Source: Aliikangiella sp. G2MR2-5
Lineage (GTDB): Bacteria; Pseudomonadota; Gammaproteobacteria; Enterobacterales; Kangiellaceae
Assembly (NCBI RefSeq): GCF_015687155.1
Contig: NZ_JADPQF010000001.1
Span: forward strand, 62,001-126,000
Length of the DNA: 64,000 bases
Direction: 5' to 3'
Shown: one piece after another, positions 25,475-28,544 of the stretch
Numbering within the stretch: position 1 is the stretch's first letter
How the letters are laid out: every line of letters begins with the position of its first letter
Program-made: the position numbers and the translations under genes
Notes under the pieces: model-generated
What the model was told of the DNA's origin: nothing
Seen by the model: only the letters and a program-made list of their open reading frames with translations
Databases searched by the model: none

Positions 25475-26587
25475 ATGATAATAAACAGTGATAAATTTCT
25501 TGCGTATGTTTCTGGAAAAATGTGTAAGGGGCTAACGCAAAAACTATTGATACTATTTGGGACTAGTTGTTGGCTATTACTTTCGTCATCAGTTTTCGCG
25601 TTAGAGGAAAAATCATCTGCTCTAAAGCAAGTTAATGCTCAAGTTTATGTCGCATTTCAAAAAACAGCGCTACGTTTTAACGATAGTAATGTGATTATTA
25701 TTGAGGGTGACGACTCGCTGGTTATTGTTGATGCGAACGACAATCTTGAAAATGCTCGCATGCTAGTGGAGGAAGTCAAAGCCCTGAGCGAGAGGCTTGG
25801 CAGTAAACCGATAGAGTATGTGATTAATACTCACTGGCACAGCGACCATACCTTGGCAAACGCGATTTACAAACAGTCATTTCCCCAGATTCGTGCTTTT
25901 GTTGGACATCAGAACCTCCCTGAACTTATCGAAAACAAAACTATTCCGCAGCTAGAAGAAAAAATTAAAAGATACATTGTCGCGATAGAAAAAGCGGAGA
26001 AAGAGCTTGCCGCGGGAACTGAAGACAAGGAGCTGGCACAAAAGATTAAAAACGCCAAACAGCTCGTCGCCGAGTTCAAGCAACTGGATATCCCCAAACC
26101 AACGATTACCTTTGAACATTCCATGCTACTTGATTTCAAAGGGCCTAAGATAGAACTACTCAATTTTGGACGTGCACATACCGAAGGCGATACTATTGTC
26201 TATTTGCCTGAGCAAAAGCTATTACTCTCCGGTGACTTGTTCGATCAGTTGCCTTACGCGGGACATGGATACCCTTCAGAGTGGCTACATACACTCAAGT
26301 CAATCGAAAAGCTCGATTTTGATAGCGTTGTTCCCGGACATGGCGCTCTGCAAAAAGGTAAAGTCCGACTAAATGCCATAATCAGTCTACTTGAAGATGC
26401 GCTCGACCAGGCCAAGTCTGCGCTCAATGATAAAGTGCCCCAAGAAGACTTTATAAAGAGTATCGATTTGCAAGTTTATAAAGAGCGCCTGGGACCGCTG
26501 GATGCGACAGGGGAGAGGGCTTTTGGACATTTTATTCCAGGTTTTTTTGAGAGGGCTTATCAGGAGGTTAATGGGGAAATTAAGTAG
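25475..26587 (+). CDS. Exported metallo-beta-lactamase-fold hydrolase
   Basis: This is an MBL-fold protein with the zinc signature T-H-W-H-S-D-H-T and further metal ligands in NFGRAHTEGDT, LLLSGDLFD and SVVPGHG. A signal peptide precedes it (LLILFGTSCWLLLSSSVFA, cleavage before LEEKS). A helical insertion rich in charged residues (about 60 residues, EEKIKRYIVAIEKAEKELAAG) lies between the zinc motifs. The start is uncertain: ATG 25475, ATG 25520 (just before the signal peptide) and GTG 25394 are all open. It resembles the quinoprotein-relay or subclass B3-like hydrolases more than true beta-lactamases; the substrate is unknown. It is divergent from the propeller-sensor regulator. Confidence 0.75.
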   Translation: MIINSDKFLAYVSGKMCKGLTQKLLILFGTSCWLLLSSSVFALEEKSSALKQVNAQVYVAFQKTALRFNDSNVIIIEGDDSLVIVDANDNLENARMLVEEVKALSERLGSKPIEYVINTHWHSDHTLANAIYKQSFPQIRAFVGHQNLPELIENKTIPQLEEKIKRYIVAIEKAEKELAAGTEDKELAQKIKNAKQLVAEFKQLDIPKPTITFEHSMLLDFKGPKIELLNFGRAHTEGDTIVYLPEQKLLLSGDLFDQLPYAGHGYPSEWLHTLKSIEKLDFDSVVPGHGALQKGKVRLNAIISLLEDALDQAKSALNDKVPQEDFIKSIDLQVYKERLGPLDATGERAFGHFIPGFFERAYQEVNGEIK

Positions 26588-26621
26588 TTGGAAATCTTTT
26601 TCAGGGAAGACAGGAAATTAT

Positions 26622-27321
26622 CTAAAGGGGACTTCCGCTTTTTTAAAAGCTTAGCAAAATTATTAGTTCAAGAGCATTTCGCAGCGCTGCGCTTTCCTGC
26701 GAGTTTCTTTTGGCCAATGCCCCAAAAGAAACCAAAAGGTCATTACGCTGAGTTAACTATTCCCTACTGACTTTCAATTTAATCAAAGCCTTTGGCAACA
26801 CCCAACTTGAAGCCGATTCTTCAGGCAGGGTAAAAACTCGCTACGCTCAAACATTCACCCTGCTTGTCTGAAGAATCATCCATTCCACGAGTCCGTTAAG
26901 ACAGCTAAGTAAAGCAATAGAATCCCTTTAATAGCTTCAACCAGAACAGGTCGAAATAAGTTAAAGGTTTGGATGGATTTTACAGCTTGAATTTAACTCA
27001 ATTCGTAATTCCGGTGCTAAAGCAACCATGCCCAGCTTTTTGGCTGCAATTATACCGAGAGGGCGATAGCAATTGTCAGTCTTATCTATACAAAAGATTT
27101 GGGTGATACAAACGCGCTCATGTAAGAGTGCCAGCGCAGCGATAAGGGCTTTTTTGCCTAGACTTACAAGGATGTAAGGAATGCAGATTTTGCAGGAGCA
27201 AAAATCTGTCTTTGTGCAGCTCTTGGCAAAAGTGGGTCGCACGCAAGCACCGCGGTGCGAAATTCCTTTAAATAAAAACTTTTGCCAAGCTTTTACAAAA
27301 AAAGCGCAAGGTCCCCTTTAG
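26622..27321. repeat. 700-bp element with about 40-bp terminal inverted repeats
   Basis: The left end (26622-26659, starting CTAAAGGGGAC) and the right end (27280-27321, ending GTCCCCTTTAG) are imperfect inverted repeats. They share CTAAAGGGGAC, then GCTTTTTT and AAAAGCTT-GCAAAA with small gaps. Internal palindromes occur at 26704-26731 (TTTCTTTTGG and its complement), 26815-26877 (arms of 17-21 bases with a 4-base bulge), 27184-27208, 27222-27289 (12-base perfect arms) and 27247-27258 (GCACCGCGGTGC). It contains no transposase; frames of 60 and 93 codons inside it look like by-products. No clear target duplication is visible. It looks like a non-autonomous mobile repeat or MITE-like unit. 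Confidence 0.6.
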
Positions 27322-27410
27322 TGAGATACCCGCTTTTATCTCTAAGAAAACTTACTAATAAGCACTAATTATCAAAGCACCCTCCATAACCAACCGCTAT
27401 AGCCGGATCC

Positions 27411-27439
27411 TTCACAAGTAACATTCAGACTGATATATT
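27411..27439 (+). promoter_or_regulatory. Sigma70-type promoter of metA
   Basis: TTCACA (27411-27416) and TATATT (27434-27439) match consensus in five of six positions each, at the ideal 17-base spacing. The expected start near 27446 lies just before the MetJ-like boxes. Confidence 0.6.
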
Positions 27440-27448
27440 TGGCCTTTT

Positions 27449-27464
27449 AGATGGCTAGACGTTT
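27449..27464 (+). promoter_or_regulatory. Two tandem MetJ-like boxes
   Basis: AGATGGCT and AGACGTTT are adjacent 8-mers matching the met box AGACGTCT in about 6 and 7 of 8 positions. They lie just downstream of the predicted transcription start and 12 bases before the metA start, a position suited to repression by MetJ with S-adenosylmethionine. Whether the genome encodes MetJ is not visible here. Confidence 0.5.
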
Positions 27465-27476
27465 GAGAGGTAGGCC

Positions 27477-28544
27477 ATGCCTTTAGTGGCGTTTTCCCCA
27501 CTTCCTACATTTGAGCGCTTAATGGCGGAGCACCACGATGTGCTACCGCTGGATAAGGCTGAGCATCAGGATATTCGAGAGTTGCATGTGGGCTTACTTA
27601 ACATGATGCCTGATGCGACCTTGCAAGCAACTGAACGTCAATTCATGCGTCTGGTAGGGGATTGTAATCAGATTGTTCAATTTTATGTTCATCTGTTTAC
27701 TATTCCTGATATACCTCGCTCAACAGAAGCTCAGGCCTGGATTGATCAATACTACGAAACTTTTGACCAGGTCAAAGAGCATGGCCTGGATGCTTTGATT
27801 ATTTCCGGCGCTAACCCGGCCAATCCAGAGCTGGAAAAAGAGAGTTTCTGGCCGATGCTGACGGAAGTTATTGACTGGGCGGCAGAGAATGTCACTTCGA
27901 CGCTGTGTGCCTGTCTGGCCACTCATGCAGTGGTTCAGTATAAATATGGAATATGCCGTCAACCATTGCCGAATAAAAAATGGGGTGTTTACCGACATCG
28001 TCTGACCAAAACCGATCACCCGCTAACTCGCCATACCAATACAAAATTCGATGTGCCTCACTCCAGGTATAATCAGATAACACGCGAACAGCTGGAAGCC
28101 AAAGGATTAAGAACATTGGCGCAGAGTGAAGATGCTGGTGTCCATCTTGCGACAAGTGAGGATGGTATTCGACTGGTTTTCTTCCAGGGACATCCTGAAT
28201 ATGATGACTTCAGTCTGCTCAAGGAATATAAGCGAGAAATTGACCGCTGGCTGTGTGGAGAGCGCGCTGATTATCCGCCATTTCCCGAAAATTATTTTGA
28301 GAAACCTGTGGTTGAATACCTGCAGAAGTTTAAAGTTGAATTGGAAAACGCAAGAAAGAATGAGACTGCACGGCCAGAATGGCCGGAAGAGTGGCTCCTG
28401 GACCAGCTCGACAATACCTGGCGCGACACAGCGTTGTCGACCTTTAATAATTGGCTCGGACTAGTGTACCAGCTGACCAATAAAAATCCCAAGCTTCCAT
28501 TTATGGAAGGGGTAGACCCATCGGACCCGCTTAAGGGGCTTTAA
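27477..28544 (+). CDS. metA: Homoserine O-acyltransferase, MetA family
   Basis: This enzyme acylates homoserine in the first dedicated step of methionine synthesis. The 355-residue protein aligns by eye with E. coli MetA: the catalytic cysteine is C146 (STLCACLATH) and the His-Glu pair is H239 and E241 (FFQGHPEYDD). It is about 45 residues longer than E. coli MetA, with a C-terminal extension. MetA-fold enzymes use succinyl- or acetyl-CoA depending on few residues, so the acyl donor is not decided. A GAGAGGTAGG ribosome site, a good promoter and MetJ-like boxes precede it. It appears monocistronic. Confidence 0.9.
   Translation: MPLVAFSPLPTFERLMAEHHDVLPLDKAEHQDIRELHVGLLNMMPDATLQATERQFMRLVGDCNQIVQFYVHLFTIPDIPRSTEAQAWIDQYYETFDQVKEHGLDALIISGANPANPELEKESFWPMLTEVIDWAAENVTSTLCACLATHAVVQYKYGICRQPLPNKKWGVYRHRLTKTDHPLTRHTNTKFDVPHSRYNQITREQLEAKGLRTLAQSEDAGVHLATSEDGIRLVFFQGHPEYDDFSLLKEYKREIDRWLCGERADYPPFPENYFEKPVVEYLQKFKVELENARKNETARPEWPEEWLLDQLDNTWRDTALSTFNNWLGLVYQLTNKNPKLPFMEGVDPSDPLKGL

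Follow-up and report, generated by a model that had tools for sequence, protein, structure and literature searches.

The gap ahead of metA in Aliikangiella sp. G2MR2-5 raises the question of what a long palindrome represents in DNA that annotators see as an empty gap. Within the window, by which we mean the whole 64,000-nucleotide stretch that was analysed, a palindromic noncoding element of 700 bp with two arms and no gene of its own lies at 26622-27321. The intergenic gap that holds it extends over 889 bp from the end of a metallo-beta-lactamase-like gene (26587) to the start of metA (27477), in good agreement with the 900-base gene desert before metA in the original prediction. We consider it probable (roughly 0.7) that this region represents a copy of a two-armed, noncoding and non-autonomous element that is intergenic in many Gammaproteobacteria, is moved in trans and is shuffled by recombination. 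If this is true, a large bacterial class owes many of its palindromic gaps to one structured element, and TwoAYGGAY, an orphan RNA family, gains a genomic setting. Two questions would then be open to test: what enzyme mobilises so long a noncoding palindrome, and whether binding sites for CsrA, a global regulator, are carried by selfish repeats.

The element starts with CTAAAGGGGAC at 26622 and finishes with the complement of this sequence at 27321; its parts are listed in the table. Terminal inverted repeats of about 40 bp had been proposed, and repeats are indeed present at the ends, but they are longer than this, with 114 bp at 75% identity by BLAST; a repeat search of the ends reports inverted arms of 89 nt (71%) and 21 nt (81%). 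A perfect 12-bp inverted pair (27222-27233 and 27278-27289) and the palindrome GCACCGCGGTGC (at 27247) were both located as described, and a 13-nt inverted pair surrounds the P3 loop, but where at least five further inverted repeats had been claimed the repeat search finds four pairs in 26400-27600. The ORFs overlapping the element (60 aa and 93 aa) have no Pfam match, in keeping with the proposed lack of a transposase. There is no terminator-like site within the element, and its region has three promoter-like sites compared with 1.7 in shuffled sequences. Folding of both strands beats 20 of 20 shuffles (z of -6.3 and -9.5), as is expected of any long inverted repeat.

Table. Positions in the window of the element, its arms and its bordering sequences.
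Feature	Positions	Strand	Remarks
Whole element	26622..27321	.	Ends CTAAAGGGGAC ... GTCCCCTTTAG, common to homologous copies
Weakly conserved sequence just outside left end	26609..26621	+	..AGCTTATTAT in several other copies
Weakly conserved sequence just outside right end	27322..27334	+	TGAGATAGCTGTC in L033; related in other copies
Left outer end, 55 bp	26622..26676	+	Identical to right outer end of copy L032
Left end module	26671..26746	+	Model R2, 62.2 bits, E 1.6e-16
Hairpin P1, left end module	26679..26702	+	
Hairpin P2, left end module	26703..26732	+	GTTTCTTTTGG..CCAAAAGAAAC
Hairpin P3 of arm A	26815..26877	+	Conserved 19-nt loop AACTCGCTACGCTCAAACA at 26835-26853
Right arm, type C, inverted relative to left arm	26938..27262	-	Arm boundary approximate
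Right end module, split by GGA-hairpin insert	27143..27268	-	Model R2, 24.9 bits, E 3.6e-5
GGA-loop hairpin CTTACAAGGATGTAAG	27163..27178	+	Outward strand of right arm
Second GGA-loop hairpin TTTTGCAGGAGCAAAA	27188..27203	+	Outward strand of right arm
Right outer end, 59 bp	27263..27321	-	

The element is dispersed in its own genome (G000), as had been suspected: 44 BLAST matches, which rule out a single-copy sequence, reduce to nine aligned copies plus partial ones, or about ten copies in all. Eight of the nine have both ends and one lies at a contig start. Read by eye, their alignment resolves into half-elements of three types, A, B and C, each about 250-350 nt long and joined in inverted pairs; the window copy, L030 and L031 are A-C, L032 combines A with an inverted B, and the other copies are B-C. 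The outer 55 bp are also shuffled, with the left end of the window copy (on arm A) identical to the right end of L032 (on arm B) and 98% identical to the arm-C ends of L034 and L035. The suggestion that the element is a composite of repeat units is thus borne out by the arm types and the shuffled outer ends. Copies L034 and L035 have cores that are 99% identical and flanks that are unlike, but since L035 sits at a contig start, assembly effects may contribute to this likeness. We note that the assembly breaks inside a copy at the end of contig C33 (L044) and the start of C34 (L035), and these contig ends could together make up a single element.

Each arm starts with two adjacent hairpins, P1 and then P2, which we refer to as the end module and whose base pairs co-vary. 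In 30 end modules from the own genome and its relatives, 97.6% of pair cells are standard, compared with 80.6% after shuffling and at most 54.8% after sliding, and double-changed cells number 68 against 20.1 in shuffles; two of the five covariation measures, both-side changes (61 of 500 shuffles as high) and further pair types (75 of 500), are unremarkable. Among 89 matches from wider taxa (86 distinct), in an 86-row alignment fitted to a model that already bears the structure, 96.8% are paired, versus 75.7% shuffled and at most 54.7% slid, while the number of further pair types is nothing unusual (equalled in 248 of 500 shuffles). In the left arm there is also a third hairpin, P3, whose 19-nt loop is conserved and whose stem differs between lineages. 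Its loop, AACTCGCTNCGCTCARACA, occurs with two or fewer mismatches in 28 distinct contexts among the loci gathered. Because RNAalifold returned no pairs for a MAFFT alignment of 19 P3 sequences, we compared stems formed from a sequence's own sides with those from crossed sides, using 20 of the 28 sequences (the other eight look like near-copies, and some of the 20 are closely related): the mean stem is 9.1 bp for own sides and 3.9 bp for crossed ones, and stems of at least 6 bp form in 95% and 20%, respectively.

This architecture is common to many lineages, a recurrence that goes beyond the original prediction, as does the occurrence of a known RNA family in some of them. The end-module model R1, which contains own-genome sequence, matches 59 of 149 relatives (own genome included), with no match at the threshold used in the other 90, among them the same-genus genome G004; it also matches 50 of 369 genomes of the class at E <= 1e-4, again counting the own genome. 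The broader model R2, which contains no own-genome sequence but whose rows were gathered using R1, matches 73 of 398 genomes of the phylum, own genome included, of which 18 lie outside the class and give weak matches (best E 6.2e-7). Across the window, the only R2 matches beyond the two end modules of the element have E values of 0.29 and 0.91. Copy numbers per genome are lower bounds, because 32, 13 and 12 candidates were scored per genome in the sets of 149, 369 and 398. End-module matches are often paired plus/minus over roughly 440-850 bp, as in the ten pairs (478-737 bp) of G003, of the same genus, and the three (563-564 bp) of G234. Among the pattern matches listed are genomes named Xanthomonas, Lysobacter, Pseudomonas, Aggregatibacter, Kangiella, Methylophilus, Dyella, Psychromonas and others, and also metagenome-assembled genomes (MAGs) labelled Oscillospiraceae, Alistipes and Verrucomicrobia, where contamination is possible; paired end modules occur in addition in a MAG labelled Cystobacterineae. 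On contigs of the Oscillospiraceae-labelled MAGs (L202, L231), with the same caution as to contamination, the end modules are likewise paired. A search of the open-access literature, supplements excluded, with end-module fragments and the P3 loop found nothing related.

Related genomes provide sites without the element. In G001, of the same genus, the regulator, the lactamase-like gene and metA (46%, 51% and 81% identical to the neighbours in the window) stand in the same order, and the gap before metA is 185 bp with no end-module match; the window gap minus the element is 189 bp. The metA loci of G003, G005 and G006 also have no end-module match, but there the lactamase-like gene is not beside metA. 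A second example comes from G839, of another genus, where the query for one element site matched somewhere in 251 of the 298 genomes of that genus. In seven of ten relatives, taken from the best matches and not at random, its site is empty, with 47-93 bp compared with >600 (G1144, G875, G853, G1049, G1023, G870 and G925); the element is present in G555 and G915, and a shorter one with an end module in G737. The dispersed copies, the ORFs without Pfam matches and the empty site in a same-genus relative support the original view of a non-autonomous mobile repeat, but the two signs of transposition that it recommended looking for did not appear. No clear target-site duplication was seen in 26 copies from three genomes (G234, G000 and G003), and neither a transposase-bearing or autonomous copy nor a mobilising enzyme was found among the loci examined. 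The loose likeness of own versus crossed flanks is 5.11 versus 5.88 in G234 and 3.25 versus 3.41 in G000; it is slightly higher for own flanks in G003 (loose 3.11 versus 2.29, tight means 1.56 versus 1.18), where model ends stood in for known element boundaries. There was no signal of pairing between the 30-nt flanks outside the element ends.

Several candidates for carriers or longer copies were considered and set aside. In G267 a 1171-bp pair (L346) encloses an ORF of 237 aa that bears cysteines (L346 1241-1954, G267:C14), for which Pfam and PADLOC give nothing up to E 1 and NCBIfam a single match (E 0.065) well below the cut-off of that family. Matches to this ORF occur in six of the 369 class genomes, including G267 itself, and at only its own locus of the six are there end modules; we therefore take it as incidental cargo and reject L346 as an autonomous copy. 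Weak tblastn matches to the ORF fall in eight plasmid and four phage records. A 1722-bp pair (L338) contains masked letters and other repeats and was discarded as a longer copy, and plasmid or phage carriage was dropped after distant blastn gave no match. The end-module pattern has a single match on a viral contig (L157 11488-11557), which the end-module model also hits.

The known RNA family is TwoAYGGAY (RF01731), reportedly a probable RNA from gut, Gammaproteobacteria and Clostridiales (PMC2864571). Rfam scans, which covered part of the gathered loci, place it within related elements at L140, L336, L337, L342, L343 and L159, and wherever an end module flanks it, it reads outward. All 30 matches in G234 lie inside element segments, 21 of them above the family cut-off, and by our reading 11 of 17 in G013 are flanked on the outer side, at no more than 100 bp, by an end module, all in the outward sense; for the other six none is listed. 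A search of ten genomes gave matches in six, above the cut-off in two, and none in G000, G003, G011 or G260; 14 control genomes also gave none. TwoAYGGAY makes up only an inner part of an arm, and the window, A. coralliicola and two other genomes are without a match. The window as a whole has no Rfam family at the gathering score, and relaxing the search brought up three matches, none better than E 0.3 and all well short of their gathering scores, with no TwoAYGGAY up to E 5. The family belongs to clan CL00106, which we take to be the CsrA-binding clan. A paired-arm element with an end module is not mentioned in the literature passages that concern TwoAYGGAY.

GGA-loop hairpins, too, favour the outward strand. 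In the 92 arms of 46 hand-picked paired elements, a set that excludes unpaired arms and in which copies from the same genome are not independent, 67 lie on the outward strand (8.7 in shuffles) and 11 on the inward strand (5.0 in shuffles), a few of those counted being P1 or P2 themselves (two in Oscillospiraceae and one in Endozoicomonas, for example). Most of them come from G234 (24), Lysobacter (13), Pseudomonas (12) and some own-genome copies (8), and both GGA hairpins of the window copy are on the outward strand. None was found in the 20 arms of A. coralliicola, the four of Methylophilus or the two of Aggregatibacter, and the eight arms of G013 have one. The Aggregatibacter small RNA family AaHKsRNA22 (RF02902), named after one genus, maps to the outward strand of one element arm in Aggregatibacter (L165 4504-4604, minus strand).

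These observations best support a scheme in which each arm is a structured unit, with the end module followed by an inner module consisting either of P3 with its conserved loop or of GGA-loop hairpins or TwoAYGGAY. An enzyme encoded elsewhere would insert the copies, and homologous recombination or gene conversion would then mix them, which would keep the copies of a genome alike while the sequence drifts between lineages. The co-varying hairpins, conserved loops and strand bias suggest that the arms act at the RNA level, perhaps as small RNAs or structured 3' tails that arise by outward transcription or read-through, and arms with GGA hairpins may bind CsrA/RsmA; any role as CsrA decoys would probably be limited to the lineages that have such hairpins. 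Conservation of the hairpins could instead serve recognition of single-stranded DNA.

Alternative explanations account for parts of these data. One is that the arms are a selected regulatory RNA, acting as CsrA/RsmA decoys in the manner of CsrB/RsmZ, with copies kept for that function. The outward bias of GGA hairpins, the position of RF02902 and the presence of TwoAYGGAY in the arms of several lineages, two CsrA-binding motifs being predicted for this family in a published analysis (PMC4333381), all argue for it. We nonetheless find it doubtful, since GGA hairpins are missing from whole lineages and such a role cannot be general, and the window copy is below the TwoAYGGAY curated score. The single ACANGGANGT of the window falls inside the element, but with about two expected in 64 kb on both strands this is no enrichment. 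CsrB, CsrC and RsmX/Y/Z are single-locus small RNAs that likewise carry GGA motifs in hairpin loops, whereas the present motifs are in dispersed arms and in some lineages only. To a similar degree we doubt that these are old, fixed repeats that gene conversion keeps alike within a genome and that now move little or not at all: the shuffled arms and outer ends of G000, the lack of clear target duplications and the eleven longest G234 matches to one copy, which are 78-86% identical with none near-identical, are as this would predict, but relatives have empty sites, and L034 and L035 are nearly identical at unlike loci.

Two further explanations concern the means of movement, and both appear to us improbable. 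A classic MITE, moved by a DDE transposase through recognition of its terminal repeats, would be short, dispersed and noncoding with terminal inverted repeats, and the element is all of these; however, it shows no clear target duplication, no parent transposon was seen among the loci examined, and the exact TAAAGGGGAC occurs in 0 of 28 scanned loci of relatives even though the hairpin end module is kept; across lineages, hairpin structure is better conserved than sequence at the ends. An outsized relative of REP/REPIN sequences, on whose single-stranded hairpins a RAYT (Y1 HUH) transposase would act, would fit the hairpin ends, the inverted pairing of units, the intergenic placement and the lack of a clear target duplication. 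REP/REPIN units are generally high-copy palindromes of 20-40 nt, however, whereas the present units are about 250-350 nt in about ten copies. One account of REP/REPIN gives over 100 copies per genome. The R0-R200 repeats of P. fluorescens are intergenic, palindromic and lineage-specific, as are REP, BIME and REPIN sequences, and R26 (352 bp) and R200 (320 bp) are about one arm in size, a comparison of size and not of sequence (PMC2718517). Compared with all of these the present element is much longer, two-armed and conserved in structure across the class. Returning to the mobile, recombination-shuffled element that we prefer, a bolder extension of it seems unlikely, if less so than either of these two means of movement: that one ancient mobile, two-armed, RNA-bearing class runs through the Gammaproteobacteria and perhaps beyond, with TwoAYGGAY as an interchangeable inner module and outward transcripts feeding the CsrA/Rsm network.

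The genes neighbouring 44 elements are convergent in 18 cases, co-directional in 22 and divergent in four; as neighbour we took the longest stop-free stretch, a rough criterion that cannot be relied on where GC is high. At L138 and L139 (G009:C1) end modules occur in runs of mostly alternating orientation, forming several tandem elements, and at L057 1300-2100 on the same contig there is a GGA two-hairpin module resembling that of the window, beside sequence that presumably corresponds to the end of a 5S rRNA gene. At L137 (G013:C10:130000-147500) several elements crowd adjacent intergenic gaps, as if locally spread, near genes that we take to resemble secA and mutT.
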